The position numbers and the translations under genes were made by a program. The notes beneath the pieces were generated by a model. That model made no database searches and was not told the DNA's origin. It worked only from the letters and a program-made list of their open reading frames with translations. From NCBI GenBank assembly GCA_027619595.1, contig JAQCHP010000033.1, positions 1 to 38,695 on the forward strand: 38,695 bases of DNA, in the 5' to 3' direction. Positions 7,323-36,801 of the stretch are shown here, piece by piece; the first letter of the stretch is position 1; the number at the start of each line of letters is the position of its first letter. This DNA comes from Planctomycetota bacterium (GTDB lineage: Bacteria > Planctomycetota > Planctomycetia > Pirellulales > Pirellulaceae).

Positions 7323-8210
7323 GTGAAGCCGTATCGATTTTCGAGTGTCGATCCCTACGCCGAGATGATGCCGTCGTACTTGGAGGATTATTTGCTCGAC
7401 CTTTGGTGGTGGGAGCAAAGTTTGCCAGCCGGTTGTTTGGCAGGAGCGACGTTTCTTGTGACGGGAGCGACGTACATGACCATCGGTGGCGCGGCCGCTT
7501 ATGGACTTGCCGCACACTGCGGCGTGAACGTCATTTGTCATGTCGAAAGCGACGCGGCCAAGCAGCGAATGCAGACGTTTCTTGATGCCAAAGGGGTCCG
7601 GAATGTGACCCTCCTGGTGGCCGATTTTCGGGATATGAAGTCGGTGGAAAATCTCGCGGAAGTTGTGCGGGGCATGGGGCCCTTACGCGGTATCTTGCAC
7701 GCAGCTGGGCTCACCGAATCGATGGACATCGCCAATTTTGAATACAATAAGTTGTTAGATCTGTTTCATGTGAACTTTGCTGCGGCGGCAGTGTTGTGCC
7801 GTGAGCTGTTGCCGACAATGGTGAGCCCCGTTCGTCCACTGCACGAACGACCGGCAATGGTCTTCTTTTCCTCTGGGCACGCCCGCGTTGTTTGCAATGC
7901 CGGGAATTTCGCCTACGCGATGACCAAATGTGGCCAAGAACGCTTGGCCCTCGATATCGCTCGATCGTATGCCGGTCAGATCACCGCCACGGCGATTCAA
8001 TTCGGCTGGATTGACAACCTGCGCCACCGCAGCGATGAGCAGGTGTTTCGTATGATGGTCGAAGCGGCGCAGAGCAATCTAGCACGCTGCGTGGCAACTC
8101 CGTCTGAGGCTGCTTTGGAGTGCGTACAAGCTTGTTTGCCGTCAAGCCGTTACAAATCCGGGGAGATTATCACTTTTGCAGGCGGACGATTTTCCCTGTG
8201 GCCCGGATAG
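7323..8210 (+). CDS. SDR / ketoreductase-like oxidoreductase
   Basis: A 295-residue short-chain dehydrogenase with some resemblance to polyketide-synthase ketoreductase domains: LRGILHAAGL at about 121-130, MVFFSSGHARVVCNAGNFAYAMTK with the Y198-x3-K202 pair and an upstream Ser, then QITATAIQFGWIDN. The cofactor loop is atypical (VTGATYMTIGG instead of TGxxxGxG). I chose the GTG at 7323 because aagga sits at 7310-7314, 8 bp upstream. The open frame extends back to 7221, and an ATG at 7269 is an alternative start. It is 29 bp before the next sialidase-like gene and probably co-transcribed with it. Substrate unknown; an exported or glycan-derived compound is suggested only by context. Confidence 0.82.
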   Translation: MKPYRFSSVDPYAEMMPSYLEDYLLDLWWWEQSLPAGCLAGATFLVTGATYMTIGGAAAYGLAAHCGVNVICHVESDAAKQRMQTFLDAKGVRNVTLLVADFRDMKSVENLAEVVRGMGPLRGILHAAGLTESMDIANFEYNKLLDLFHVNFAAAAVLCRELLPTMVSPVRPLHERPAMVFFSSGHARVVCNAGNFAYAMTKCGQERLALDIARSYAGQITATAIQFGWIDNLRHRSDEQVFRMMVEAAQSNLARCVATPSEAALECVQACLPSSRYKSGEIITFAGGRFSLWPG

Positions 8211-8239
8211 GAAAACTATTCTCGTGGAGTCTGTCAGTG

Positions 8240-9610
8240 ATGCTGAAACCTTGTGTAGCAATTCTTGGAAGCGTCAGTCTTCGAGCCGTCAATCAACGCC
8301 CGCGTGACGTGCAATGTGGGGTCGGCAGTTTAATACTGCCGCGACAGCGTACGGCAAGCGTCAGCAATTGGCTGGGTAGGTGGCTCATCATGCTCGTGGC
8401 GAGTACCTCTGGCGTTTTCGCGTGGGGTGCCGATGCTCCATCGCAAACGGCACGTCCGATCGTGATTGCGAATCCTTCGCGACTGGCTCCTCAGCCGCTT
8501 GCTGCGACGCGAACGCCGCTCGGCGTGCCGAACGACTACAAGCCGTGGATCGTACGCCTTCGCGATGGCCAGCTCATGATTGTCGCTTTCTGCTTCGGTG
8601 GTATTCCCGACACGAAACTCCCGCCGGGTGCTCCTTACCGAGAGCACGCCGTGTTCTGGCGCTCGTCCGACGGCGGTCGTACCTGGAGCGAGCGCGAAGA
8701 GCGTCCTGACGTTCGCGGCCGAGAGTTCGCTTTGACTTGTTTGTCCGACGGAACGTTGATCATGCCGTGTCAAATTCAAGGCAACGACGCGGAGAACGAA
8801 TCTGGATATACGTACAGTAAATTGTTTCGATCGACCAACAATGGCCAGACCTGGACCGAACAACGCATTGGCCCCGAAGGTTTTCCAGAAAAAGCGTCGA
8901 CCTCCCTCGATTGGACCCCCTTAGAACTGCCCGACCCAGATCGCCCCGGAAATACAATGGTGCAGCTCGGAGTCGCGATGCAGCATGGCAAAGATGCAGC
9001 CGCATCGCATGTGTTTCTTTGGCGGTCGCGTGATAGTGGTCTGACGTGGGATAAATCGTTGAAACCGGATACGCAGGGTTGGAGCGACGTGGATGGATTC
9101 TTTTCGCAGTCGACAACCTACCGCACCGTCACGGGAGCGCTCTTGCACCCAGTCCGGGTCGACGCGACCGGGCCTCACTGGAAGTTGCCGGCCTTTGCTG
9201 AACCGAAACAGCGGTCGGGAGATCAAGATGATCGATCCATGCTGTGGAAGTCGGACGACGGCGGACGCTCCTGGCATAAACACGCGACGGATGGTCGCTT
9301 TGGCTCGTATGGGGAAATGTATCCGCGTTTCTTGCGTTTGCAGGATGGTCGTTTGCTATTAACTTTCACGGCACGCAGCAATCCGACCGACGGATTTGCG
9401 ATCGGTTTGCGTGCATTGCTGAGTTATGACGATGGCGAAACGTGGGATTTTGATCACGACCGGCTGGTGATCGGAGATATTAACATTGGCAAAAGCGGCG
9501 GAGGTTTTGGAAATACGGTACAGCTCGACGACGGGAGTCTCGTATCGGTACACAGTTACCGTGGCCAAGATAGCAAGACACACGTCGAAACCGTTCGATG
9601 GAAATTGTGA
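8240..9610 (+). CDS. Sialidase-family (BNR/Asp-box) exo-glycosidase-like protein
   Basis: About 456 residues. A membrane-spanning leader appears unusually late (WLIMLVASTSGVFAWGA, about 50 residues in), so either the true start is downstream of the ATG at 8240 or the leader has a long n-region. 8240 has ggag 10 bp upstream. The body carries five Asp-boxes: RSSDGGRTW, RSTNNGQTW, RSRDSGLTW, KSDDGGRSW and LSYDDGETW. It also has repeated KPWIVRLRDGQLMIVAF and RLQDGRLLLTFTARS strands, as in GH33-like sialidase propellers of planctomycetes. The C-terminus (LDDGSLVSVHSYRG...VETVRWKL) parallels that of the fusion protein at 4342-6777. Likely periplasmic or extracellular. True sialidase activity is not proven by the boxes alone. 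Confidence 0.87.
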   Translation: MLKPCVAILGSVSLRAVNQRPRDVQCGVGSLILPRQRTASVSNWLGRWLIMLVASTSGVFAWGADAPSQTARPIVIANPSRLAPQPLAATRTPLGVPNDYKPWIVRLRDGQLMIVAFCFGGIPDTKLPPGAPYREHAVFWRSSDGGRTWSEREERPDVRGREFALTCLSDGTLIMPCQIQGNDAENESGYTYSKLFRSTNNGQTWTEQRIGPEGFPEKASTSLDWTPLELPDPDRPGNTMVQLGVAMQHGKDAAASHVFLWRSRDSGLTWDKSLKPDTQGWSDVDGFFSQSTTYRTVTGALLHPVRVDATGPHWKLPAFAEPKQRSGDQDDRSMLWKSDDGGRSWHKHATDGRFGSYGEMYPRFLRLQDGRLLLTFTARSNPTDGFAIGLRALLSYDDGETWDFDHDRLVIGDINIGKSGGGFGNTVQLDDGSLVSVHSYRGQDSKTHVETVRWKL

Positions 9611-9770: not shown

Positions 9771-11063
9771 ATGCTATCCAAAATGCATTGTTCGCGACGA
9801 AGTTTCCTGGCCGGTGCGGCGTCCTCGGTGTCGCTCGCTCCGATGCTACTCAGTGGCTCGGCCCGAGCTGCCGCACGACGCCCCCGTATCGCCGCTCTGG
9901 CCACGATCTATCACAAGTACTCGCACGCCCAACACATTGTCGACCGATTTCTCGAAGGGTACGGTTGGGAAGGGAAGCATTATCGGCCTGACATGGATGT
10001 CGTGTCGTTGTATGTGGAGCAGGTTGGCGAGGACGATCTCAGTCGCGAACGTCTCAGCCGACACCCGGAAATGAAGCTCTATCCGACCATCGCGGAAGCG
10101 TTGACGCAGGGTGGGAGTAAGCTCGACGTCGATGGGGTCTTGTTGATCGGTGAGCATGGCAAGTACCCCGCCAACGAAAAGGGGCAAGTCATGTACCCGC
10201 GCTATGAGTACTTCAAGCAGGTGGTCGATGTGTACCGAAATAGCGGTCGAACGGCTCCCTTGTTCAACGACAAGCATTTGTCCTGGAACTGGGATTATGC
10301 ACGTGAAATGGTGGATACGGCGAAGCAAATGGACTTTGGGTTCATGGCCGGTTCGTCACTCCCCGTCACGTGGCGGCACCCGTCCGTGGACCTCCCTTGG
10401 CAAAGCGGGGTCAAGGAAGTCGTCGGGATCTGGCGCGGCGGTGTCGACGGTGCCGATATCCACGTCCTGGAGGCAATGCAAGCCATCGTGGAACGACGTC
10501 GCGGAGGAGAAACGGGCGTTCGATCGGTGGAGGCTCTCAAGGGCGACCGATTTTGGAAGGCATTGTCGGCAGGTTCCTGGGATGCCGGTGGTTGGGATCC
10601 CGAATTGCTCGATTCTGCGCTCGCGCGAAGTCATGAACTGACGCCATCGAAAGCCCAGTACAATCACGTGTTCCCCACGCACGAAGATATTCAACGATTG
10701 GCCCCCGAGGCGTACGCCTACCGATTCGAATACATGGATGGGTTGAAGGCGACGATGATCCAGTTGAATGGTCTTGTCGGGGATGTCAACGTGGCTGCCC
10801 GAATCGATGATGGCAACATTTTTTCGGTAATGTTCCATTTACCGATGCGCTCCCTGCGGAATTTTTTCAGTCCGCAGGTGCATCATATCGAGACCCTCTT
10901 CAAAACCGGTAAGTCTCCCTACCCGGTCGAACGCACGCTGCTGACGACCGGCATGACGGCCGCTGGCATCGAATCGACGTTCCAGAATCAGAAGAAGCTC
11001 GATACGCCCCACTTGGCCGTTAAGTATCAGGCAGTGGAAGAGTCCCTCTTTTGGAGAACCTAA
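9771..11063 (+). CDS. Tat-exported protein of unknown function, paralogue 1 of 3
   Basis: A 430-residue protein with a twin-arginine leader (CSRRSFLAGAASSVSLAPMLL). The mature part has RIAALATIYHKYSHAQHIVDRFL, then a repeated family motif IGEHGKYPANEKGQ followed by YPRYEYF, then FNDKHLSWNWDYAREMV and FMAGSSLPVTWRHPSVDLP. The layout (a YPTIAEAL-VDGVLLIG strand, then a loss-of-substrate loop, then a C-terminal beta-sheet half) recalls the Gfo/Idh/MocA oxidoreductase fold, but the usual GxGxxG cofactor motif is absent, so this is inference and enzymatic activity is unknown. Start: the ATG at 9771 has gagga at 9759-9763, 7 bp upstream. The open frame extends to a GTG at 9753. The next paralogue starts directly after its stop codon. 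This copy is the most diverged of the three. Confidence 0.85.
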   Translation: MLSKMHCSRRSFLAGAASSVSLAPMLLSGSARAAARRPRIAALATIYHKYSHAQHIVDRFLEGYGWEGKHYRPDMDVVSLYVEQVGEDDLSRERLSRHPEMKLYPTIAEALTQGGSKLDVDGVLLIGEHGKYPANEKGQVMYPRYEYFKQVVDVYRNSGRTAPLFNDKHLSWNWDYAREMVDTAKQMDFGFMAGSSLPVTWRHPSVDLPWQSGVKEVVGIWRGGVDGADIHVLEAMQAIVERRRGGETGVRSVEALKGDRFWKALSAGSWDAGGWDPELLDSALARSHELTPSKAQYNHVFPTHEDIQRLAPEAYAYRFEYMDGLKATMIQLNGLVGDVNVAARIDDGNIFSVMFHLPMRSLRNFFSPQVHHIETLFKTGKSPYPVERTLLTTGMTAAGIESTFQNQKKLDTPHLAVKYQAVEESLFWRT

Positions 11064-12362
11064 ATGTTCCATCGACGCAACTTCCTCAGCGCGGTGGGCG
11101 CAGCGGGGCTCATCGGACTTAGTCGCCTTTCTGCCGATGACAAAATTGTTCAGCCTCATGCTGCGCCGGCAGCGCAATCGCCGAAGAAAAAAGTTGCCAT
11201 CGTGACGACCGTCTGGGGATACCTCACCCATGCGCAGCACATGGGAGACCGGTTGCTTGTCGGGTATCCGCTCCACGGCAAGTGGCATACGCCGCAAGTT
11301 CAAGTTGTCTCTGCATTCGTGGACCAGAAACCCGACTATGACCTCAGTGCCAAGCGTGGTGCGGATCATGGTTTTACGGTCTATTCGACGATTGCCGAGG
11401 CGCTTCGTTGTGGCGGCGACAAATTGGCCGTGGATGGCATCGTGATCATCGGTGAGCACGGCGAGTATCCTGAAAATGAAAAGGGGCAAATCCTTTACCC
11501 GCGGTTCGAGTTCTTTCAAGAAGCGGTGAAAGTTTTTGAACAGGACGGTCGAGCGGTCCCCATCTTTAACGACAAGCATCTGTCGTACAGTTGGGAGAAG
11601 GCGGCCAAGATGGTGGCCGATTCGGAGCGATTGCAATTCCCCTTTTTGGCCGGTTCGTCGCTCCCCGTGACCTGGCGCAACCCATCGGTCGATGTCCCCT
11701 ACGGCGCTGAGGTCAAAGAATCTCTGGCCGTCGCGAACGGTCCGGTCGATTCCATGGGATTTCATTTGCTCGAAGCAATGCAATGTATGATCGAACGTCG
11801 CAAAGGGGGCGAAACGGGGATCAAGTCGGTACAACTGATCGAAGGGGATGAAGTTTGGCGGGCCGGTGAAGATGGCCGTTGGTCGAAACGCCTGTTGGAG
11901 GCCGCTTTATCCCGTTCTGACTCGCTCCATGGTGACTCAGAACTCGATTCGCGCCCGCAGGATCTTGTCCACAATGGGAAACTGGCCAGTCTGATTGAGT
12001 CAGACTCCACCGCCAAAGCGGTCCTGATCGAGTACAACGATGGGCTGCAAGCAAGCATGCTCATGCTGGATGGCGTACTAGGAGACTTCAACGTCGCTGT
12101 CAGGCTGGGCAACAATCAGGTCGTTTCCACACAATTTTATCTACCGCCTGAACCGAACGTTGCCTATTCCGCGCGACTCATGGCACAGGCCGAAGAAATG
12201 ATTGTCACTGGGAAAGCTCCCTATCCCGTTCGACGCACGCAGCTCACCAGCGCACTCCTCGACCGGGCACTCCAGTCCAAGTTGGATGGCTATCAACGCA
12301 TTGCGACACCCGAATTGAATATCACATACCAAGCCCCTCGTGAACATCGGTTCGGCGGATAG
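11064..12362 (+). CDS. Tat-exported protein of unknown function, paralogue 2 of 3
   Basis: 432 residues with a Tat leader (MFHRRNFLSAVGAAGLIGLS). Its ATG follows the TAA of paralogue 1 with no gap, and ggag lies at 11052-11055. It carries the same family blocks: KKVAIVTTVWGYLTHAQHMGDR, IGEHGEYPENEKGQ, FNDKHLSYSWEKAAKMVAD and FLAGSSLPVTWRNPSVDVP. A block shared with paralogue 3 but not paralogue 1 is RWSKRLLEAALSRSDSLHGD and ELDSRPQDLVHNGKL. By eye it is much closer to paralogue 3 (around two thirds identical) than to paralogue 1. A role in the sugar locus, for example as a binding or redox protein acting in the periplasm, is inferred from the neighbours only. Confidence 0.85.
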   Translation: MFHRRNFLSAVGAAGLIGLSRLSADDKIVQPHAAPAAQSPKKKVAIVTTVWGYLTHAQHMGDRLLVGYPLHGKWHTPQVQVVSAFVDQKPDYDLSAKRGADHGFTVYSTIAEALRCGGDKLAVDGIVIIGEHGEYPENEKGQILYPRFEFFQEAVKVFEQDGRAVPIFNDKHLSYSWEKAAKMVADSERLQFPFLAGSSLPVTWRNPSVDVPYGAEVKESLAVANGPVDSMGFHLLEAMQCMIERRKGGETGIKSVQLIEGDEVWRAGEDGRWSKRLLEAALSRSDSLHGDSELDSRPQDLVHNGKLASLIESDSTAKAVLIEYNDGLQASMLMLDGVLGDFNVAVRLGNNQVVSTQFYLPPEPNVAYSARLMAQAEEMIVTGKAPYPVRRTQLTSALLDRALQSKLDGYQRIATPELNITYQAPREHRFGG

Positions 12363-12441
12363 CAACTTCGTACGCAACTGCAGACCATCGACTAAGACCT
12401 ATCGACAACCATCCCTAACTCGACTTGCGGAGACAATTTCT

Positions 12442-13728
12442 ATGTTGGATCGTCGAACGTTTCTGGGGGCGATGAGCGCTGCGGGGCTGGCCGGGCTGCC
12501 GGCCGTGTGCGCAGGGGCCCCAGCATCGCAGCCCAAGGGTCCACGAAAGAAAATTGCCATCGTCACCACCCTGTGGGCCTATTTGGCGCACGGTCAGCAC
12601 ATGGGGGACCGGTTCCTGGTCGGGTACCCCAAGCGGGGCAAGTGGCATCATCCGGAGGTCGATGTCGTGTCGGCCTTTGTTGCGCAGAAGCCCGAAAGTG
12701 ACCTGAGTGCCCAACGCGCAAAGGACTTTGGGTTCACCATTTATCCCTCGATTGCTGAGGCACTGCGTTGTGGTGGTGACAAGCTGGCGGTGGATGGCGT
12801 GGTCGTGATTGGCGAACACGGCGACTATCCGCAGAACGAAAAGGGGCAGACTCTTTACCCGCGTTATGAATTCTTTCAAGAAGCGATCAAGGTCTTTGAG
12901 CAGGACGGGCGCGCCGTGCCGATGTTCAATGACAAACATCTGTCGTATAGCTGGCAGAAAGCGGCCAAGATGGTCGCCGATTCCAAGCGATTGGGGTTCC
13001 CGTTCCTGGCAGGATCTTCAGTTCCGGTGACGTACCGCGAGCCGTCGGTCGATGTCCCCTACGGAGCGCACGTGACGGAGGCCTTAGCGATTGGTATGGG
13101 GGGAGTCGACCATACGGCTTTTCACGTTTACGAAGGCCTGCAAAGTATGGTGGACCGTCGCCGCGGCGGTGAAACGGGGGTCAAGTCGGTTCAATTGCTC
13201 GAAGGGGACGAACTTTGGCAGGCGGGCGAAGATGGTCGATGGTCGAAACGGCTCTTAGAAGCCGCACTCTCGCGATCCGACTCGATTGGCGGGGACTCGG
13301 AACTCGATTCACGCCCGCAGGATCTGGTACACAACGGCAAGCTCCGCGAAATGGCGGCCAAAGAAGAAGATGGACAGACCTGTCTGCTCATCGAATACAA
13401 CGACGGCCTGCGTGCGGCGGTGCTGATGCTGAACGGCATTGTCGGAGATTTCAACGGAGCTGTCCGACTTGCCAATGACGAGATTATCTCCACGCAGTTC
13501 TACGCGCCACCCGAGCCCAACGTCGTGTACTCAGCGCGACTCATGGCGAAAGTGGAAGAGATGATCGTGACCGGAAAAGCACCTTTTCGGGTCGAACGGA
13601 CGCAACTCACGAGCAGCGTGATCGAACGAGCCCTCGACTCGCGCTTTTCAGGTCACCAGCGCATCGCCACACCCGAATTGAATATCTCGTACATGGCGCC
13701 TCGCGAGTCGCAATTCGGTGACCCGTAA
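12442..13728 (+). CDS. Tat-exported protein of unknown function, paralogue 3 of 3
   Basis: 428 residues with a Tat leader (MLDRRTFLGAMSAAGLAGL). The open frame reaches back to 12340, but the ATG at 12442 gives a standard Tat leader and has ggag at 12429-12432. The family motifs are conserved: IGEHGDYPQNEKGQ, FNDKHLSYSWQKAAKMV, FLAGSSVPVTYREPSVDVP and RRRGGETGVKSVQLLEGDELW. The C-terminal half has ATPELNISYMAPRES, near-identical to paralogue 2. Spacing to the upstream gene is 79 bp and to the DUF1080 gene downstream 44 bp, so the three paralogues and DUF1080 are likely one transcription unit. Confidence 0.85.
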   Translation: MLDRRTFLGAMSAAGLAGLPAVCAGAPASQPKGPRKKIAIVTTLWAYLAHGQHMGDRFLVGYPKRGKWHHPEVDVVSAFVAQKPESDLSAQRAKDFGFTIYPSIAEALRCGGDKLAVDGVVVIGEHGDYPQNEKGQTLYPRYEFFQEAIKVFEQDGRAVPMFNDKHLSYSWQKAAKMVADSKRLGFPFLAGSSVPVTYREPSVDVPYGAHVTEALAIGMGGVDHTAFHVYEGLQSMVDRRRGGETGVKSVQLLEGDELWQAGEDGRWSKRLLEAALSRSDSIGGDSELDSRPQDLVHNGKLREMAAKEEDGQTCLLIEYNDGLRAAVLMLNGIVGDFNGAVRLANDEIISTQFYAPPEPNVVYSARLMAKVEEMIVTGKAPFRVERTQLTSSVIERALDSRFSGHQRIATPELNISYMAPRESQFGDP

Positions 13729-13772: not shown

Positions 13773-14753
13773 ATGTTTGTCCCAGTGCGTCTCTTGGTTG
13801 TGCTGCTGTTGATAGGATCGCTCGCGACGGGCACCGATGCAGCAGACTCGGCTGCATCGAACAAAGTGTTAGCGCAAGATCGATTGTTGCAAGGCGAGTA
13901 CGTCGGGACGTTGGCCGATGGTACGCGTTGGGGCGCTCAGGTGATCGCCCGAGGGGAGCTCCGGTTCCGCGGAGTCGGTTTCCGAGGGGGACTGCCGGGA
14001 GACGGATGGCAGCCGGGTGACGAAATGCGGACTGCCGAAGCGATCTGTGTTGGCAACGCCATCGAGTTCGGCGAGCCAGATCAGCGAATTGTAGTGCGTG
14101 AGGGCTCTGTTTTTGTTCACGGCGCGCAGGGGGTGGTTGAGGGCGAACTGAAAAAAGTGGTCCGGACGAGCCCCACCTTGGGTGCCAAGCCGCCCGCCAG
14201 CGCGACCGTACTCTTCGATGGTACGTCGACCCAAGGTTGGAACAACGGGCAAGTGCACGAAGTGGAGGGCGAAAAATTGCTGATGTCGACCGATTGCGAC
14301 ACCTTGGAAAAATTCGGTGATCATCAGCTGCACTTGGAATTTCGCACGCCGCTCCTGCCAGAAGTGCGCGGGCAAGGGCGAGGCAATAGTGGCGTGTTTG
14401 TGCAAAGTCGCTATGAAGTGCAGATTTTGGATTCGTTTGGGTTGTCGGGTGAGCACGACGAATGCGGGGCTATCTATAAGATCCAGAAACCGGCGGTGAA
14501 CATGTGCTTCCCGCCCGAAGGGTGGCAGACGTTGGACATCGATTTCCAATCGGGTCGCTACGATGCTTCCGACAAACTTCTGACCAACGCGCGGATCACC
14601 GTCCGGCACAATGGCGTTGTCATTCACGACAACCTGGAACTCACGCGTGGTACCCCCGGACGCCTTCCGGTAGGGGGCTCCGCCGAACCGGTGTACCTGC
14701 AGGATCATCAGAATCCAGTACTCTTTCGCAATATTTGGGCCGTGAAACGCTAA
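13773..14753 (+). CDS. Secreted DUF1080 (3-keto-disaccharide hydrolase type) protein
   Basis: 326 residues with a signal peptide (RLLVVLLLIGSLATGTDAA). Residues about 35-135 form a planctomycete-type beta module (LQGEYVGTLADGTRWGAQVIA). Residues about 144-326 are DUF1080: TVLFDGTSTQGWNNG, DHQLHLEFRTPLLPEVRGQGRGNSGVFVQ, RYEVQILDSFGL, GAIYKI and GWQTLDIDFQSGRYD, then YLQDHQNPVLFRNIW, all classic family landmarks of a concanavalin-like fold. Characterised DUF1080 members cleave 3-keto-glycosides or bind glycans. A step acting on a product oxidised by a Gfo/Idh-like or SDR enzyme of this locus is inference. It is the last gene of the likely Tat-paralogue operon. Confidence 0.9.
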   Translation: MFVPVRLLVVLLLIGSLATGTDAADSAASNKVLAQDRLLQGEYVGTLADGTRWGAQVIARGELRFRGVGFRGGLPGDGWQPGDEMRTAEAICVGNAIEFGEPDQRIVVREGSVFVHGAQGVVEGELKKVVRTSPTLGAKPPASATVLFDGTSTQGWNNGQVHEVEGEKLLMSTDCDTLEKFGDHQLHLEFRTPLLPEVRGQGRGNSGVFVQSRYEVQILDSFGLSGEHDECGAIYKIQKPAVNMCFPPEGWQTLDIDFQSGRYDASDKLLTNARITVRHNGVVIHDNLELTRGTPGRLPVGGSAEPVYLQDHQNPVLFRNIWAVKR

Positions 14754-21391: not shown

Positions 21392-22183
21392 ATGAATCCT
21401 GACTTGACCTTATTGGGCCTTACAGCAGTTGTGACGGGCAGTACCCAGGGGATCGGCCGGGCAATCGCCTGTGAGCTAGCCCGAGCCGGAGCGGATGTCT
21501 TGGTGCACGGCCGTAACCGAGGCGCGGCGGCCGAGGAAACCGCCGCCGAAATCCGTCGAATCGGCCGCCAGAGTACCGTCCAATTGGCCGATATCGGCAG
21601 AAGCAGGGACCGGCAGCTGCTGCTGCAATCTGCCTGGGAATGGCGTGGGGGAGTCGACATCTGGGTAAACAATGCCGGTGCCGACGTGTTAACAGGTGAA
21701 CTGGCCGAAGAATCCTTCGCCAAAAAACTGGAAGTCTTGTGGGAGGTTGATGTGCTCGGCACGATTGAACTCAGCCGGGAGATCGGCCAGCGGATGGTCA
21801 CGCGAGGGACGGGCACGGTACTCAACATGGGCTGGGACCAAGCAGATCAGGGCATGGAAGGGGATAGCGGAGAGTTGTTTGCCACAGTCAAAGGGGCCGT
21901 TATGGCCTTCACACGCAGCTTAGCACGGAGCCTTGCACCAACTGTACGTGTTAACTGCTTGGCTCCGGGGTGGATACGCACGCAATGGGGCCAAAATGCT
22001 AGCGGCTACTGGCATGAACGAGCCTGTGGTGAAGCAATCCTACAACGATGGGGTACCCCCGACGACGTCGCTCGTGCCGCCCGATTCCTGGCCTCGCCCG
22101 ACGCTAGTTTTATCACCGGACATGTCCTCCCCATCAACGGCGGATGGGCCGGTCGCTACCTGCCCGATCGATCGACCCGTTAA
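21392..22183 (+). CDS. SDR-family protein lacking the catalytic Tyr
   Basis: 263 residues with an intact cofactor motif (VTGSTQGIGRAIA, residues 14-26) and NNAG at 93-96. The C-terminus is FabG-like (RVNCLAPGWIRT, then ITGHVLPINGGWAG). The catalytic Tyr is replaced: ELFATVKGAV has F163 and K167, where F-x3-K stands for Y-x3-K. The expected Ser is also missing (VLNMGWDQ). A binding or non-standard reductase role is more likely than classic dehydrogenase chemistry. It is the first gene of the operon, 5 bp before the DHPS-like gene, which suggests a role linked to pterin or to the cofactor pathway. The open frame extends to 21236, but the ATG at 21392 fits the family. Confidence 0.82.
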   Translation: MNPDLTLLGLTAVVTGSTQGIGRAIACELARAGADVLVHGRNRGAAAEETAAEIRRIGRQSTVQLADIGRSRDRQLLLQSAWEWRGGVDIWVNNAGADVLTGELAEESFAKKLEVLWEVDVLGTIELSREIGQRMVTRGTGTVLNMGWDQADQGMEGDSGELFATVKGAVMAFTRSLARSLAPTVRVNCLAPGWIRTQWGQNASGYWHERACGEAILQRWGTPDDVARAARFLASPDASFITGHVLPINGGWAGRYLPDRSTR

Positions 22184-22188
22184 GAAGT

Positions 22189-23607
22189 ATGACATACCGA
22201 CATATTCATTTTGTCACTGGACGCCTCGCGGAACACGCGCTGCGTGACGTTGTGTCGCAACTCCAGGTGAAGGTTGGATTTCAAGTAACCATCGATGTGT
22301 TGCCGATTACTGTGGCGGCACTCATGACGCCAACTTGGATCGCGAAGCATCTCGCAGCCAACCCCGACGCAGACTTGGTTCTGTTGCCAGGTTATTGCCA
22401 AGGCGACCTCACCGTCGTGCAAGAACGAACCCAGGCCAGAGTGCAATGCGGTCCCAAGGACCTGTTAGCCTTGCCAGAATTTTTTGGCCAAGCACCCGAC
22501 CGAACCGAATACGGACAGTATGCGATAGAGATTCTCGCAGAGATCAACCACGCGGGACAACTTGAACTACCCGCATCCTTAGAACTCGCAAAACAGCTGG
22601 TCAGGGACGGTGCGGATCTGGTCGACCTGGGATGCTCCCCAGATCGTTACTGGCCAGGTGTTGGTGATTGCGTGCGTCAACTGCGAGATGCCGGAATCCG
22701 TGTATCCATCGATAGTTTTGACCGTCGCGAAGTAGAAGCAGCGGTCAAGTCAGGTGCCGAACTGGTCCTGTCGGTCAACTCCACGAACCGCGAATACGCA
22801 GCCGATTGGGGCTGTGAGGTAGTTGCAATTCCCGACCAACCTCAAATGTGGGAGTCGCTCACCGACACCATCGACTACCTGACTCAGCAACGCGTCCCAT
22901 TCCGCATCGATCCGATCCTCGAACCGATCGGTTTTGGTTTTGCACAGAGCATGGGTCGGTATTTACGCGCCCGTTCCGAGTTCCCGTCCGCGAAGATCAT
23001 GATGGGCATCGGCAATCTCACGGAACTTACCGACGTCGATTCCGCAGGCATCAACACCCTACTGCTCGGTTTCTGTGCCGAATTGCAAATCGAGAGTGTC
23101 CTGACGACCCAAGTTATTCCTTGGGCAAGTACGAGTGTCCGTGAATGTGACTTGGCACGTCGGTTGGTGCACTTCGCCGTTCAACGTCGAACCTTACCCA
23201 AACACCTGGAGCCCCAATTGGTAACGCTCCGTGATCCACGTCGCTATGAACTCGGACCGCAACGACTGCATGAGCTATCGCAACAAATTCGCGACCACAA
23301 CTATCGGCTATTTGCCGAATCGGGTGAAATTCATCTACTAAGTCAACAACTCCATTTGTCGGACGCGAACCCGTATCACCTATTCGACCGACTGATGGAG
23401 ACACATCCCAAGAACATGTCGCCATCGCACGCTTTCTATTTGGGCTTTGAAATGGCCAAAGCGCTCACTGCGTTAACGCTCACAAAACATTACCGCCAAG
23501 ACCAGGCATTGGATTGGGGCTATTTGACGCGTGAAGAATCACCGCACCGCAAATCCAATGGCACAAAGCCGCTCGACGCGCAACCCGATGGAACGCCGGA
23601 CTCGTAG
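22189..23607 (+). CDS. Dihydropteroate synthase-like protein with N-terminal DUF6513-type domain
   Basis: 472 residues. The N-terminal part (HIHFVTGRLAEHALRDVV, then DLVLLPGYCQGDLT) matches the DUF6513-type domain, and the middle has TIM-barrel DHPS hallmarks: LVRDGADLVDLGCSP, IRVSIDSFDRREVEAAVKSGAEL and VLSVNSTNRE. This architecture is characteristic of DHPS-like proteins associated with tetrahydromethanopterin-type cofactors in archaea and C1-using bacteria, including planctomycetes. The expected reaction would join pABA (or a beta-ribofuranosyl derivative) to a pterin. It is 5 bp after the SDR and 20 bp before pabB; the pairing with pABA synthesis strongly supports this. The ATG at 22189 fits the domain start. 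Confidence 0.87.
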   Translation: MTYRHIHFVTGRLAEHALRDVVSQLQVKVGFQVTIDVLPITVAALMTPTWIAKHLAANPDADLVLLPGYCQGDLTVVQERTQARVQCGPKDLLALPEFFGQAPDRTEYGQYAIEILAEINHAGQLELPASLELAKQLVRDGADLVDLGCSPDRYWPGVGDCVRQLRDAGIRVSIDSFDRREVEAAVKSGAELVLSVNSTNREYAADWGCEVVAIPDQPQMWESLTDTIDYLTQQRVPFRIDPILEPIGFGFAQSMGRYLRARSEFPSAKIMMGIGNLTELTDVDSAGINTLLLGFCAELQIESVLTTQVIPWASTSVRECDLARRLVHFAVQRRTLPKHLEPQLVTLRDPRRYELGPQRLHELSQQIRDHNYRLFAESGEIHLLSQQLHLSDANPYHLFDRLMETHPKNMSPSHAFYLGFEMAKALTALTLTKHYRQDQALDWGYLTREESPHRKSNGTKPLDAQPDGTPDS

Positions 23608-23627: not shown

Positions 23628-25067
23628 ATGCTCAACGTACCCATGGTCGAAGAGTTATCTCCGGCACCGGAACCTGACGAGGTTTTTCGCAGTCTCCGGC
23701 ACTTACCGGGCTGTATCTTCCTCGACAGCGCGCGGCGTGTCCCCCAACTTGGCGGCTATTCGTTCGTAGCGGCCGATCCTTGCGACTGGATTGTCAGTCC
23801 ACCCCAAGACCCCGTGGCTGGTCTCGATCGTCTGTCGCGTCGATTGCAGGCATTTCACGTCGACACGATTCCGGACCTCCCGCCGTTCCAAGGGGGTGCT
23901 GCCGGTTTCTTCGCTTACGATCTCGGACGGATCTTCGAACCGACCGTCTTGCCCCACGCGCACGATGACCTGCATGCACCCCAGATGGCGGTGGGCTTGT
24001 ACGACGTGGTGATTGGGTTTGACCATGCACAAAGTCGCGCATGGATTATTTCGCAAGGCTATCCAGAACGAGACCCGATCAAACAACGCATCCGTGCTGA
24101 ACGGCGGCTACGCGAATTCCGCCTTCACATGACGACAGCAGGTCCTTCTGTGGCGTTGGAGCCGTCCTCGTCGGCACCTTCAGCGTTGCTTGCCCCAGCC
24201 AAGCCGGTGACTCGACATCCGTTTGTTGTGAGCGATTTTACCGAATCGGAATACCTAGCGGCCGTCCAGCATGCGATCGACTATGTGCATGCCGGCGATA
24301 TTTTTCAGGTCAACATCGCTCAGCGTTTGGCCTGTCCGGCCATGGACAGTGCAACGGAATTGTACCTCCGACTTCGCACGGCGAATCCAGCGCCATTTGC
24401 CGCTTATTTTGACGCTGGCAGTGTCCAAATCATGAGTGCTTCGCCGGAGCGATTCTGGCGTATCTCCGAAAACTCCATCGAAACCCGTCCGATCAAAGGG
24501 ACACGACCAAGGTCACTGGACCGTCCCGAGGCAGACCTATTCGCCGGAACGGAATTGCGAGAGAGCGCCAAGGACCGCTCGGAGAACATCATGATCGTCG
24601 ATCTTTTACGTAACGATCTGGCGCGTCTTTGCCTGCCCGACTCGATCCACGTGCCGCAACTTTGCCAGCTCGAAACGTATGCGTTTGTGCAGCATCTCGT
24701 ATCGGTCGTCACAGGGACGTTGCGACCCAATGTGGGGATCGCTGAAGTCGTGCGTTCGACCTTCCCAGGTGGATCGATCACCGGGGCACCCAAAGTGCGT
24801 GCCATGCAGATCATTGCTGAGCTGGAACATGCGGCTCGCGGACCGTATTGCGGATCGCTCGGATATTGGGGGTGGAACGGTGCCTCCGACTGGAATCTAC
24901 TCATCCGCACCATCACTGCCAGTCGCGGTTGGTGGCATTTTCCGGTGGGAGGTGGTATCGTGGCAGACTCCGATCCACGGCACGAACTGGACGAAACGTG
25001 GCACAAAGCGGAAGGGCTGTTACGGGCGCTTGTACCCCAATCCCAACGAGCGATGGGTCGCAAGTGA
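23628..25067 (+). CDS. pabB: Aminodeoxychorismate synthase component I
   Basis: 479 residues of the chorismate-binding family. The diagnostic PIKGT is at residues 288-292 (RPIKGTRPRS). Its Lys marks aminodeoxychorismate synthase; anthranilate synthases have PIAGT, so this is pabB rather than trpE. Other landmarks are GDIFQVNIAQRL, IMSASPERFWR, RSENIMIVDLLRNDL, GSITGAPKVRAMQII and GGGIVADSDPRHELDET. The reaction converts chorismate plus ammonia to 4-amino-4-deoxychorismate, a precursor of pABA. The neighbour downstream is the glutamine amidotransferase subunit. A second ATG at 23643 is possible; no strong ribosome site distinguishes them. Confidence 0.92.
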   Translation: MLNVPMVEELSPAPEPDEVFRSLRHLPGCIFLDSARRVPQLGGYSFVAADPCDWIVSPPQDPVAGLDRLSRRLQAFHVDTIPDLPPFQGGAAGFFAYDLGRIFEPTVLPHAHDDLHAPQMAVGLYDVVIGFDHAQSRAWIISQGYPERDPIKQRIRAERRLREFRLHMTTAGPSVALEPSSSAPSALLAPAKPVTRHPFVVSDFTESEYLAAVQHAIDYVHAGDIFQVNIAQRLACPAMDSATELYLRLRTANPAPFAAYFDAGSVQIMSASPERFWRISENSIETRPIKGTRPRSLDRPEADLFAGTELRESAKDRSENIMIVDLLRNDLARLCLPDSIHVPQLCQLETYAFVQHLVSVVTGTLRPNVGIAEVVRSTFPGGSITGAPKVRAMQIIAELEHAARGPYCGSLGYWGWNGASDWNLLIRTITASRGWWHFPVGGGIVADSDPRHELDETWHKAEGLLRALVPQSQRAMGRK

Positions 25068-32740: not shown

Positions 32741-34258
32741 CTACGGGATGGGCGGCTTCGGAACAGGATGGAGCGCCAAGATTCTCGCCAATCTTTCGAC
32801 TTCCTGCGGCCTCTCGTCGGCATGATTACGGATTTCAAGCGGGTCCTCGTCGTAGTCGTACAGTTCGTACACCGGTTCAGAAATTGCTTCCGCGGCTCGT
32901 GGCTCCGTGTCTCGCCATTCGACCAGCCGGTATCGGGACGTGCGGATGGCTCGCCCCATGAGTCCCCGCTCACGTGGGAAACAGTGATACGCATAGGACG
33001 AATCAACATCCCCATGATTTTGAAGCGTAGCCATGAGGCTCTCGCCATCGATTGGCTGCGGTACAACTGGGGCTTCGAGACCGGCCAATTCGCACAACGT
33101 CGGAAAAACATCAACCGTCTCCACCACAACGTTGGAACTTGAACCAGATGACGTCACCCCTGGCGCAACGATCACCAGTGGAATTCGATTCGCCTGTTCG
33201 TAGTTCGTGTGTTTCGTCCAGAGACCGTGATCTCCGAGGTGAAATCCGTGATCACCCCACAGAATAATGATGGTATTTTCTAAAAGCCTTAGTCGCTCCA
33301 ATTCATCCAATACTCTTCCAACCTGTGCATCCATATAACTGAGCGCTGCGTAATATCCATGCACCAATGTTCTTTCCAGTTCTTCCGACAGTGGACCTTC
33401 GGTGGGCACGGGCTCGTACTGACCTAGCTCACCCAACGACTTGCCGGCGCAATTTGGCGCACCTTCCGGTAGGACCCGTACCGCCGCCAGAGGGAATTTT
33501 GCACGGTCGTATTGATCCCAGCACCATTGCGGCGCACAAAACGGCAAGTGGGGTTTCGTAAACCCGACGGCTAAGAAAAAGGGTTGAATCCCATGCTTCA
33601 AGTCATCAGTTGTCTTGAATCGTTGCAGCCGCCGGATCGCTTCCGTCGCAATCCGTCCGTCAGCGTATGCTTCGTTCGGGACATTCGCACGTTCGAAAGC
33701 CGGGCCGCGGGGAAGCCCCTCCGACGGCAAGTTGGCAAAGCGTGCTTCTTCGCGCGTCATTCTTCCACGAGTACTCTCCGGCAAGGCGTAGTCGATCACT
33801 TTGTCGGGATGAAACGGTTCGCTCCACGAAGCCGCGTCATTCACGTTTCCGTGTCCAACGTGAAATACCTTACCAATTCCCGCCGTATGATATCCATGCA
33901 ATTTAAAATACTGTGGCATTGTGATGGCATCAGGAACCGCTTTGCGAAAATTTGTCCCCAAAGAATAAACGCCAATCGATGTTGAACGTGAACCAAGGAG
34001 TAGGTTATTGCGGGACGGGGCACATACGGCTTGATTGCAATAAGCGCGATCGAATCGCATGCCACGTGACGCCAACCGATCCAAATGGGGTGAATGCACC
34101 CACGCATCACCGTAGGCATGAAACGACGGCTTTAGATCGTCGACGAGCAGCAGCAATACGTTGGGGCGCGCTGCTTGGGTCGTGCCACTAGCACAACAGC
34201 CACACACAAATAAGAACGTAAACAGACGAGAAAAAACGACTTGCTGTGGAGCGGCCAT
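32741..34258 (-). CDS. Sulfatase, iduronate-2-sulfatase-like
   Basis: 505 residues with a signal peptide (FTFLFVCGCCASGTTQA). The alkaline-phosphatase-like fold starts LLLLVDDLKPSFHAYGD. C79 in CAPSRNNLLLGSR (C-x-P-S-R) is the residue converted to formylglycine by the cognate maturase, making it a type-I sulfatase. Metal ligands and later motifs are visible: GKVFHVGH, TKPHLPF, WGDHGFHLGDHG. The CAPSR sequence plus PQYFKLHGYHTAGIGKVFH and YHCFPRE strongly resemble the iduronate-2-sulfatase (S1_7) group. The expected substrate is sulfated uronic-acid-containing polysaccharide. Its ATG is 3 bp after the stop of the next sulfatase gene. Confidence 0.93.
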   Translation of the reverse strand: MAAPQQVVFSRLFTFLFVCGCCASGTTQAARPNVLLLLVDDLKPSFHAYGDAWVHSPHLDRLASRGMRFDRAYCNQAVCAPSRNNLLLGSRSTSIGVYSLGTNFRKAVPDAITMPQYFKLHGYHTAGIGKVFHVGHGNVNDAASWSEPFHPDKVIDYALPESTRGRMTREEARFANLPSEGLPRGPAFERANVPNEAYADGRIATEAIRRLQRFKTTDDLKHGIQPFFLAVGFTKPHLPFCAPQWCWDQYDRAKFPLAAVRVLPEGAPNCAGKSLGELGQYEPVPTEGPLSEELERTLVHGYYAALSYMDAQVGRVLDELERLRLLENTIIILWGDHGFHLGDHGLWTKHTNYEQANRIPLVIVAPGVTSSGSSSNVVVETVDVFPTLCELAGLEAPVVPQPIDGESLMATLQNHGDVDSSYAYHCFPRERGLMGRAIRTSRYRLVEWRDTEPRAAEAISEPVYELYDYDEDPLEIRNHADERPQEVERLARILALHPVPKPPIP

Positions 34259-34261
34259 GGA

Positions 34262-35866
34262 TTACGGGGATTCTCGAGGTGGAGGCTGGAGTTCGCCGTC
34301 TACAACAACACGGGTACGCCGCGACCACTCGTCGTAGTCGGTCGACATTTTCGCCACAATGGCCGGATGCTCCTGCGCTAGATCGTGCAATTCGGTGCGG
34401 TCAGCCGACATGTCGTAGAGTTCCCAAGGCCTATCCTGCAAGGCGACTAATTTCCAGGTACCATCTCGCACCGCACGATGGTTGTCGTGATTAAAAAACA
34501 GGGGGCTCAGACGAGCGACGGAGCCACCCGTAAACGTCGGCGTCAAGCTCGTCCCTTCCATCGGTTCAAGGGCATGACCTTGGTATTCCTGCGGGTAGCT
34601 CGCCCGAGCGACATCCACCACGGTCGACATGATATCGATCACGTGGGCAGGTTGATGTACCAGCGTTCCCGATGCGGCAGCAGCGATACCTTCTTTCCAA
34701 TGAGCGATCAATGGAGTTGCGATCCCCCCTTCGTGCACGCGGCGCTTCCATTTCCGAAAGGGGGTATTGTTGAGCGTCGCCCAATTCTGCCCTAAGAACA
34801 CGTTGGATGCGGGGCCGCCCGGTTGCTCCCCTTCGTAGCGACCCAGCGGACCACTTTCCGCGTTGCCACCGTTATCGCTCAGAAATAGGACCAATGTATT
34901 GTCAAATACGTCCCGCTCCTTCAATCCGGCTACAAGTTCTCCGACGCTCTCATCCATGGTCTCGATCATGGCCGCATAGATCGCCATCATGTGGTCGAAT
35001 CGTTGTTGCAATTCCGGTGATAAAGAATCCCATGCGGGAGAGCTTTCTTCACGTTCACTGAGTCCCCATTGGGGATCGATGAGTCGTAACGCGATTTGTC
35101 GCCGATAACGTTCGATCCGCAACTGATCCCACCCAATTTGATATTTCCCTCGATGTTTGGCGATGGCGGACTCGGGCGCCATGAGCGGAAAGTGGGGAGC
35201 GCAGTGCGATAGATACAAGAAAAAGGGTTTTTGTTGCTGTACGGCCTCGTCGACGAATTTCAGCCCCCACTCGGTCCACAAATCGGGACCGTACCAAGTT
35301 CCAAACAGGCGATCATCGATGCTTCTGGGTTCACCGTTCAGATACAAGTGGGCATCGGCATTCTTTCGAAGCGTCTGATTGTAGAAGTGCACGCCACCTG
35401 CAACCAGATTGAGGCTTCGCTGAAAGCCGCGTTGCCAAGGGGCCGATCCATTCCGTTGGCCAACGTGCCACTTTCCCGTCATCGCTGTGAAATATCCAGC
35501 CGATTGCAATACCTCGGCGATCGTCACGCAGGAGCTGGCCAGTCGGCCCTGAAAGCCAGGGTGGCCCGGACGAATTGTTCCGTCCAAGTGGCCCATCCCC
35601 ACCTGATGTGGATACTGTCCCGTCAACAGGGATGCACGCGTCGGGGAACAACGACCAGTGTTGTAACATTGCGTGAAACGTATGCCGCTCGCCGCCAAGG
35701 CATCCAAATGGGGCGTCGGGATTTCGCCACCGTAGCAGCCGATATCCGACCAACCCATGTCGTCGACCAGGATGATGACGAAATTGGGTGGCGCGGATGA
35801 TGCAGCCTCAGGAATAAAAATTGCAATGGAGCACACCCACATCACGATGGTGGCGAACTTCCTCAT
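34262..35866 (-). CDS. Sulfatase, arylsulfatase A-like
   Basis: 534 residues with a signal peptide (FATIVMWVCSIAIFIPEAASS). FGly precursor: CSPTRASLLTG with C73 (C-x-P-T-R). Other landmarks are IILVDDMGWSDIGCYGGEIP, GKWHVG and SDNGGNAESGPLGRYEG, with HDNHRAVRDGTWKLV near the end. ATG at 35866 is chosen because aaggggc lies just upstream and it gives a normal leader; the frame is open to 35998. It is the upstream gene of the sulfatase pair (3-bp gap to the second). The export and maturation route implies periplasmic or extracellular action on a sulfated glycan. Confidence 0.93.
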   Translation of the reverse strand: MRKFATIVMWVCSIAIFIPEAASSAPPNFVIILVDDMGWSDIGCYGGEIPTPHLDALAASGIRFTQCYNTGRCSPTRASLLTGQYPHQVGMGHLDGTIRPGHPGFQGRLASSCVTIAEVLQSAGYFTAMTGKWHVGQRNGSAPWQRGFQRSLNLVAGGVHFYNQTLRKNADAHLYLNGEPRSIDDRLFGTWYGPDLWTEWGLKFVDEAVQQQKPFFLYLSHCAPHFPLMAPESAIAKHRGKYQIGWDQLRIERYRRQIALRLIDPQWGLSEREESSPAWDSLSPELQQRFDHMMAIYAAMIETMDESVGELVAGLKERDVFDNTLVLFLSDNGGNAESGPLGRYEGEQPGGPASNVFLGQNWATLNNTPFRKWKRRVHEGGIATPLIAHWKEGIAAAASGTLVHQPAHVIDIMSTVVDVARASYPQEYQGHALEPMEGTSLTPTFTGGSVARLSPLFFNHDNHRAVRDGTWKLVALQDRPWELYDMSADRTELHDLAQEHPAIVAKMSTDYDEWSRRTRVVVDGELQPPPRESP

Positions 35867-35880
35867 GCAAATGCCCCTTG

Positions 35881-36801
35881 CTAACGGTCTCGCCATCGCT
35901 GCCAAGATGCTCCCGCTATCGCAACACGAAATTGCACAAGTCGCGTGTTTTCGGCTTCCGTAACGTACACCGTTCGTCCGTCCGGCCCACCAAAACATAA
36001 ATTCGTCGGCTGATGGCCGAGAACGTCGATCTCGCGTAACTCGGTTCCGAATGGGGTCATGATCACCACTGTCCCCTTACCGTGTCGAGTGATGTACAGG
36101 TTACCTTGCGTATCACACCGCATGCCGTCAAATCCATGGTCGGGAAACTGCTTGATGAGTTCCTTATCACCGAGTGTACCATCGTCACGAATCGGGAATT
36201 TCCACACGTTCCGCTGCACCGATTCATTCACGTAGAGCCATTTGCCGTCTGGGCTCACCTCGATACCATTGCTAGTGCCAAGGTCTCCTGCAACTTGTTT
36301 CGCGACACCGGCCGTGGATACCATCCAGACCCGACCGTGCCCTTCTCCCCAGTTGGGATCACTGGCGTACATAGTGCCATTACCGGCAATCGCCAGATCA
36401 TTGGGCTGGTCGGTCGTGGGGACTTTGCAAAAAACGTCGATTTGTTTCGTTTTCGGATCGACGCGCAAAACGTTGTGCTCTGCATAGTCGGCCACGTAAA
36501 AATATCCCTGCTGGTCAAATACGATTCCATTTCCGGTACTCTTTCCTGGCAAGGTTACGAAGACCTCTCCTTGCCCATCGGGAGTAACTCTACCAATGGT
36601 CTGTTGCTCCTTGAAATTTACGGCGAAGACGTTGCCGTCACGATCACAACTGGGGCCCTCCACACCGCTGGTAAATTCACCAACCGGCGTCAGGGGTGTT
36701 GCTACGTACAACTCCTCCGCCCAAACCGCACGCACCATGCCATGGCCGCCCTGACAGACCGCCAATACAACCCAAACTCCGAAGATTCTCGACCGACTCA
36801 T
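35881..36801 (-). CDS. SMP-30/gluconolactonase-like beta-propeller
   Basis: 306 residues with a signal peptide (GVWVVLAVCQGGHGMVRAVWA). The propeller repeats read GVEGPSCDRDGNVFAVN, GNGIVFDQQGYFYVADY, QPNDLAIAGNGTMYASDPN, SNGIEVSPDGKWLYVNES and FDGMRCDTQGNLYITRHGK. The E-G-P, N-D and N-G-I-x-x-S-P-D-G motifs hold the metal-binding residues of SMP-30-type lactonases. Start at 36801 has ggag 8 bp upstream; a GTG at 36810 also exists. It is 14 bp upstream of the arylsulfatase A-like gene, so one operon. It probably hydrolyses an aldonolactone or related sugar acid. Confidence 0.9.
   Translation of the reverse strand: MSRSRIFGVWVVLAVCQGGHGMVRAVWAEELYVATPLTPVGEFTSGVEGPSCDRDGNVFAVNFKEQQTIGRVTPDGQGEVFVTLPGKSTGNGIVFDQQGYFYVADYAEHNVLRVDPKTKQIDVFCKVPTTDQPNDLAIAGNGTMYASDPNWGEGHGRVWMVSTAGVAKQVAGDLGTSNGIEVSPDGKWLYVNESVQRNVWKFPIRDDGTLGDKELIKQFPDHGFDGMRCDTQGNLYITRHGKGTVVIMTPFGTELREIDVLGHQPTNLCFGGPDGRTVYVTEAENTRLVQFRVAIAGASWQRWRDR

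Follow-up and report, generated by a model that had tools for sequence, protein, structure and literature searches.

The 38,695-nucleotide contig JAQCHP010000033.1 of a Planctomycetota bacterium (Pirellulaceae; assembly GCA_027619595.1), analyzed over its whole length and hereafter called the window, carries on its forward strand three consecutive open reading frames (ORFs), P0001, P0002 and P0003, each of which contains the four blocks IGEHGxYPxNEKGQ, YPRxExF, FNDKHLS and AGSSxPVT, as the initial annotation of this DNA had reported. That annotation spoke of three paralogues, and they do form one family, but a family of two types: P0001 is of type A, while P0002 and P0003 are both of type B (43% identity between P0001 and P0002, 71% between P0002 and P0003). 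By fold, the family is a relative of Gfo/Idh/MocA enzymes that lacks a domain name of its own. Its features in the window are the following.

9771..11063, + strand: type A subunit gene P0001, 430 amino acids (ORF; RR motif at residues 9-10)
10152..10160, + strand: EHG codons of P0001 (residues 128-130)
11061..11063, + strand: TAA stop of P0001; the next base is the start of P0002, in the same frame
11064..12362, + strand: type B subunit gene P0002, 432 amino acids (ORF; RR motif at residues 4-5)
11205..11231, + strand: residues 48-56 of P0002, TTVWGYLTH, replacing the GxGxxGxxH loop of canonical relatives (hhalign register and column counts)
11454..11462, + strand: EHG codons of P0002 (residues 131-133), directly after strand 125-129
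11571..11576, + strand: D170-K171 codons of P0002, K171 being aligned to the EKP-motif Lys
12442..13728, + strand: second type B gene P0003, RR motif near the N-terminus (12442 is a chosen start; the longest ORF begins at 12340)
12814..12822, + strand: EHG codons of P0003

Residue conservation (P0002 numbering) was evaluated in two alignments, A2 with 27 diverse rows and A3 with 111 rows, the latter combining 108 of 136 collected ORFs with the three window proteins and covering both types and at least eight phyla. E131, H132, G133, Y135, D170 and K171 are invariant in both (111/111 and 27/27), and likewise Q88, S198, S199, R205, H234 and E237, while H56 is kept in 27/27 rows of A2 and 110/111 of A3. 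About 20 polar residues, EHG included, are identical in every row of A3, most of them also in A2, and on these alignments the conservation of the EHG block is beyond chance. The strict conservation claimed previously thus stands for the A2 and A3 rows but not for the wider family, since two paralogues of the same genome that lie outside these alignments carry EQG (L004) and EYG (L008) instead. The former (L004 1492-3030, - strand; C131) is an A-type paralogue with no second family gene in the surrounding 10 kilobases (kb; L156). The latter (L008 766-2913, - strand; C272) is a 716-residue member fused to DUF1080, and it adjoins a canonical Gfo/Idh/MocA gene (L008 2855-4174, the gene of L134).

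The AlphaFold (AF2) model of P0002 has a mean predicted local distance difference test score (pLDDT) of 92.2 and a predicted template modelling score (pTM) of 0.87, and consists of an N-terminal Rossmann domain followed by a C-terminal alpha/beta substrate domain. Foldseek retrieved 308 PDB chains at E<=0.001 with this model, GenD2 being the first, and VIA-align superposed GenD2 on model residues 39-417, across both domains, with Z 25.7, root mean square deviation (rmsd) 3.5 and 285 aligned residues. Inositol dehydrogenases, KanD2 and DgpA gave Z values of 25.1 to 23.6, within a range of 22.4-25.7 over 50 rows of Gfo/Idh/MocA structures. The kinship of fold suspected in the initial annotation is therefore confirmed, and its remark on the missing glycine-rich cofactor motif is equally sound. 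In the register of a weak hhalign alignment, GxGxxGxxH falls on residues 48-56, its His on H56, and the three Gly are lost: positions 48, 50 and 53 hold Gly in 5, 0 and 0 of the 111 A3 rows, against 10, 10 and 9 of the ten members of the canonical set A11, and the second and third positions are mostly occupied by Ile/Val/Glu and Tyr/Lys. As this loop is the dinucleotide-binding one, nicotinamide adenine dinucleotide, phosphorylated or not (NAD(P)), is probably not bound in the standard way.

Consistent with its previous description as uncharacterized, the family yields no match above cut-off to any characterized one, P0001, P0002 and P0003 remaining blank at that level in Pfam and NCBIfam scans, and the 27 A2 members give stray Pfam matches only, besides TAT_signal in ten of them. 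PF01408 is absent from the Pfam matches of the window proteins, none of which reaches its gathering score, and is seen in one of the 27 A2 members at E 0.1; the genome itself has 45 PF01408 matches, none coinciding with the six places at which its eight family members lie. Having neither the glycine motif nor a PF01408 match, the family should not be filed among the NAD(P)-dependent Gfo/Idh/MocA proteins.

Other hallmarks of these enzymes are retained. A profile search of PDB sequences returned a sole stretch, FNDKHLS opposite the EKP region (FCEKPIA) of 6z3b/6z3c (E 0.0013; 6o15 at E 0.1), in which K171 is aligned with the EKP Lys, as it also is by hhalign; a search of the PDB with a single sequence gave one unusable match (E 0.69). 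According to DSSP, E131-H132-G133 follow strand 125-129 (beta4), D170-K171 end strand 167-170, Q88 comes after strand 79-86, S198-S199 come after strand 194-197 and H56 stands at the start of the first helix. Such strand ends form the rim of the Rossmann domain on which NAD lies, and because EHG follows beta4 at this rim of the canonical enzymes, it would by this topology lie in the pocket. Some conserved residues fall in the C-terminal domain, away from the rim. H234 (111/111 A3 rows) sits in helix 228-243, past residue 200 where the hhalign alignment stops, and may be the equivalent of the catalytic His in the Gfo/Idh/MocA C-terminal domain.

A genome-contig scan confirmed at least 566 relatives in nine or more phyla; the best 80 of these, the closest relatives of P0002, are the loci used for the counts of pairing and context, and the rates hold for that part of the family. 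Their phyla, read from record titles and nearly all represented by metagenome-assembled genomes, are Planctomycetota, Acidobacteriota, Poribacteria, Latescibacterota, Verrucomicrobiota, Chloroflexota, Gemmatimonadota, Handelsmanbacteria and Actinomycetota. In 62 of the 80 loci two family genes stand in tandem, on the same strand and no more than 400 bases apart, and all 52 typable tandems have an A gene (P0001-like) followed by a B gene (P0002-like), a two-gene organization that had escaped the initial annotation together with the natural A-B fusions and the sharing out of Tat-like signals between subunits. Such fusions occur in three Chloroflexota loci (L097, L107 and L113) as one 810-residue ORF with a proline-rich linker; alignments of the fused proteins with the single A and B rows crowd all of the latter onto one half. 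In three more loci two family genes are separated by 0.7-2.2 kb, and the last 12 show no close pair, contig ends possibly hiding partners; eight of these hold a third, single type (HAWH). In a quick tree the B rows group together (75 rows, support 100), the A rows more weakly (70 rows, support 90; a core of 65 at 63), and re-rooting on distant clades reduces the A clade from 70 to 58 rows; P0001 falls among the type A rows of this tree. A scan for positions separating A from B at a 90% level gave none, but its rows had been sorted by a crude text rule (35 A, 68 B and 8 C), and nothing is concluded from it.

The window pair was modelled as a read-through of A and B, with a residue put in place of the P0001 stop and with 38 rows, 19 of them paired. 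The resulting model has pLDDT 89.7 and pTM 0.88, and drops below a pLDDT of 50 only in stretches of residues 1-7 and of the linker 404-441; for two chains of about 400 residues, this pTM argues for a defined mutual placement. Both halves keep the Gfo fold, B with Z 26.2 and A with Z 23.0 (rmsd 3.0, 279 residues aligned to 8zn9). A and B may thus form a heterodimer in solution, as the model suggests.

All three window proteins begin with an RRxFL motif, in agreement with their earlier designation as exported by twin-arginine translocation (Tat), but curated Tat models pick up P0003 alone, and below cut-off (TIGR01409, 14.6 vs a cut-off of 16.7 bits; Pfam TAT_signal, E 0.45). TAT_signal matches ten of the 27 A2 members, with a best E of 0.00022. 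Judged from sequence, Tat export of the window proteins is likely. To 59 A-B pairs, including the window, the three fusions and the three wider-spaced pairs, we applied a rule (hereafter RR rule) by which an RR motif must precede a hydrophobic stretch. The 25 pairs from Acidobacteriota divide into 12 with the signal on A only, 12 on B only, one on both and none on neither. In L081, counted here as B-only, the A gene is truncated at the contig end, which leaves 24 judged pairs (12 A-only, 11 B-only, one both), 23 of which bear the signal on exactly one partner. Outside Acidobacteriota, the seven Planctomycetota pairs other than the window include four A-only, one both and two neither (L060, one of the latter, has RRAA, a sequence outside the rule), the two pairs of Verrucomicrobiota have both and the one of Actinomycetota is A-only. 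Neither partner is signed in the pairs of Latescibacterota (2), Gemmatimonadota (2), Handelsmanbacteria (1) and Chloroflexota (1), in one unlabelled pair and in 12 of Poribacteria; another Poribacteria pair is A-only, with an RR 56 residues from the core that a tighter rule drops.

Applying the tighter rule with the narrower A clade leaves 53 pairs, those of Acidobacteriota being 12 A-only, 11 B-only (L081 included) and one both (L101). The spacing of the genes differs in parallel: of the 12 A-only pairs, 11 have a B core that starts 4-12 bases past the A stop, while in B-only pairs 69-87 bases separate the A stop from the B core, so that the anatomy agrees with the signal assignment. The distribution in Acidobacteriota suggests export as a folded heterodimer. 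A Fisher test of these signals (p 9.5e-6) mixed hand-entered counts and ignored relatedness, and is not relied on here.

The three genes lie, as previously noted, between a sialidase-like gene and a DUF1080 gene:

8120..9610, + strand: BNR/sialidase-like protein upstream (PF13088, E 1.4e-14; context only)
13773..14753, + strand: DUF1080 / 3keto-disac_hyd protein (PF06439, E 1.9e-33), 44 bases 3' of P0003

The proposed connection with DUF1080 and 3-keto-sugar genes is reinforced by two gene fusions, PF06439 being present in the same ORF as a family member in L008 (E 4.4e-34) and in L033, from another genome of the phylum (E 1.8e-43). Moreover, PF06439 lies within 500 bases of the family in the window, in L147 (E 1.4e-33) and, weakly, in L028. 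The own genome has 21 PF06439 matches, and the family is fused or adjacent to one at two of its six places, an association that looks unlikely by chance. A general link to sialidases was not supported, BNR_2 being found in two of 89 operonic neighbours (the Pfam count covers 89 of 97 neighbours and the first 25 of 84 families), and the acidic or sulfated sugar previously put forward as substrate found no support. Clustering of the neighbours in the family loci revealed no partner common to all phyla. In Bryobacterales, the gene order of L069 is DUF362, A, B, creatininase-fold hydrolase, RraA-like aldolase; L088 carries a sugar-acid dehydratase gene upstream and, downstream, one of the creatininase fold. 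Several Poribacteria loci have genes for a metallo-beta-lactamase, a glyoxalase and PhyH upstream. A carbohydrate or cyclitol substrate is likely in view of the DUF1080 links and of these creatininase-fold, dehydratase and aldolase neighbours. In Poribacteria, a gene for a PEP_hydrolase-like protein (PF09370) lies 0.2-7 kb downstream of A/B (L067 9357-10232, likewise L053, L068, L078 and L099).

The family most likely works like Gfo/Idh/MocA enzymes, as a sugar enzyme whose A and B subunits form a heterodimer and whose cofactor site is altered. To the fuller proposal, which adds Tat co-export and, in Planctomycetota, a link to 3-keto sugars, we give about an even chance. P0001 would pair with either P0002 or P0003 into a heterodimeric enzyme, each subunit retaining H56, Q88, E131, H132, Y135, D170, K171, S198, S199, R205, H234 and E237, with the glycine loop lost and the pocket presumably rebuilt around the EHG block. 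In clades with RR signals, the subunits would fold and pair in the cytoplasm and exit by Tat, one signal serving both. The enzyme of Planctomycetota would probably act on glycosides in the periplasm, and the 3-keto sugar that it makes or uses may be cleaved by the DUF1080 domain next to it or fused with it. A passage of a mutant-fitness study proposes that DUF1080 proteins are periplasmic 3-keto-glycoside hydrolases near lactose 3-dehydrogenase; the same passage names BT2157 a 3-ketotrehalose hydrolase and records the domain also in an endo-xanthanase/lichenase (PMC9007349).

Several results weigh against this heterodimeric, co-exported sugar enzyme. Aligned by hhalign with ten canonical members of the own genome, the family scores poorly overall (probability 5%, E 0.0078). 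Regarding export, the window pair carries the RR motif on both A and B, and the pairs of Poribacteria, Chloroflexota, Latescibacterota and Gemmatimonadota are signal-free by the tighter rule, which implies that export is not universal. The B-only pairs form one clade on the tree, so that a single switch of the signal carrier suffices and may have happened once. The RR rule is also loose, firing on 31 of 155 neighbour ORFs of Acidobacteriota loci and on 45 of 492 overall, positives that will be in part real Tat substrates and in part chance, and the curated models respond unevenly: the Pfam TAT model recognized none of ten signed type A proteins, and TIGR01409 of NCBIfam exceeded its cut-off in both signed B proteins of B-only pairs (2/2) and in none of the three signed A proteins of A-only pairs. 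As for the substrate, neighbour contexts vary widely, creatininase-fold hydrolases are the Pfam family met most often in operonic neighbours (7/89), and none of the 80 loci has DUF1080 closer than 500 bases to a family gene (three have it farther off); hence the 3-keto link is not general.

It is conceivable, with a chance of roughly one in three, that the proteins form a widespread class of heterodimeric enzymes, both subunits of the Gfo/Idh/MocA fold, in which EHG, DKH and the [ST]HA loop have turned the NAD site into a different catalytic centre that relies on a metal, on another cofactor or on none, and that the folded pair is Tat-exported in some phyla with the signal on either partner. 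We consider it unlikely that the family represents ordinary NAD(P)-dependent Gfo/Idh/MocA sugar dehydrogenases with a diverged nucleotide loop, their heterodimer reflecting mere subunit diversification. The closest solved structures are indeed those of NAD-dependent enzymes, the EKP Lys is retained, H56, aligned to the His after the glycine loop, is present in 110/111 rows, and position D87 is acidic (Asp or Glu) in 107/111, lying at the end of beta2, from which the adenosine ribose is often bound in canonical enzymes. However, the second and third positions of the motif are never Gly (0/111), being mostly Ile/Val/Glu and Tyr/Lys, and beta4 runs into the conserved EHGxYPxNEKGQ block, partly against gaps in the canonical alignment.

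Rather improbable, too, is a pair acting on cyclitols, sugar acids or other small ring compounds and not on glycosides, with lineage-specific DUF1080 links. The frequency of creatininase-fold neighbours and the gene orders of L069 and L088 would fit such substrates, and eight creatininase-fold proteins match the model of the diketo-inositol hydrolase IolN at E 7e-15 to 7e-23, below its cut-off; yet the same eight fit the MftE and creatininase models better, also below cut-off, and other phyla have other neighbours, as illustrated by Poribacteria. A catalytically dead Gfo-fold protein serving as sugar-binding or scaffold component, for which the lost cofactor motif and the additional domains or sequence in the same ORF (DUF1080 in L008 and L033, several hundred Pfam-less residues in L027 and L028) may be invoked, is quite improbable given some 20 polar residues invariant over both types, which would be more typical of catalysis than of binding alone.

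The preferred heterodimeric sugar enzyme can be compared with three known systems. With Gfo/Idh/MocA proteins (GenD2, KanD2, DgpA, myo-inositol dehydrogenase, GFOR), which open sugars by NAD-dependent oxidation, the family shares the two-domain fold from end to end, the position of the EKP Lys and the His after the first loop, whereas it lacks GxGxxG, has EHGxYPxNEKGQ after beta4 and DKH for EKP, and is encoded by tandem A/B genes. LacABC is of another enzyme type, in which a cytochrome and a small Tat subunit accompany a GMC flavoprotein, and no GMC match was found among the 20 window proteins scanned. Several Gfo/Idh/MocA enzymes oxidize sugars, DgpA doing so at C3 of glycosides according to an excerpt of PMC11239390. 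In the part of PMC9007349 that describes the LacABC and DUF1080 pathway of Caulobacter, the feature in common with the window is an exported dehydrogenase-like component near DUF1080. Tat hitchhiking, in which one signal carries an unsigned partner, is described in extracts on the gamma-alpha pair of flavin adenine dinucleotide (FAD) glucose dehydrogenase (PMC6719666) and on PaoABC (PMC4273604); the present family differs in that its partners are paralogues, both with the full polar set, and that the signed partner differs between clades.

A broad sister family with the Gfo/Idh/MocA fold and some of the catalytic residues, but without the nucleotide loop, would be a test case for cofactor change in Rossmann enzymes, and its A/B pairs, signed on one partner or the other, would lend themselves to testing directly whether Tat co-exports paralogues. 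Hundreds of proteins now without a name, from Planctomycetota, Acidobacteriota, Poribacteria and other phyla, would gain a function as well.

Family members occur in 21 of 294 sampled genomes of the same phylum (own genome counted) and in eight of 199 from the phylum of L069. None of 31 viral-contig stretches matching a pattern encodes a relative, and a plasmid search gave one (33% identity), at L158 8416-10266 on the Arthrobacter plasmid pHiyo8-1, where it is annotated 'conserved hypothetical protein'; this plasmid is typed as conjugative, and genes for a polysaccharide deacetylase and a phosphate-binding protein lie near the distant relative. No paper on the family was recognized in the literature listings searched. 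In L027, L028, L142 and L145 the family member constitutes the end of a much longer open frame; Pfam recognizes nothing at E 0.001 in the remainder of L027, L028 and L145, and in that of L142 only a sub-cut-off Reg_prop propeller repeat. Elsewhere in the window, a DUF6513 plus pterin-binding protein is encoded at 22144-23607, adjoining a chorismate-binding enzyme at 23628-25067, and two adjacent sulfatases with SGSH C-terminal domains lie at 32741-35998 on the - strand.

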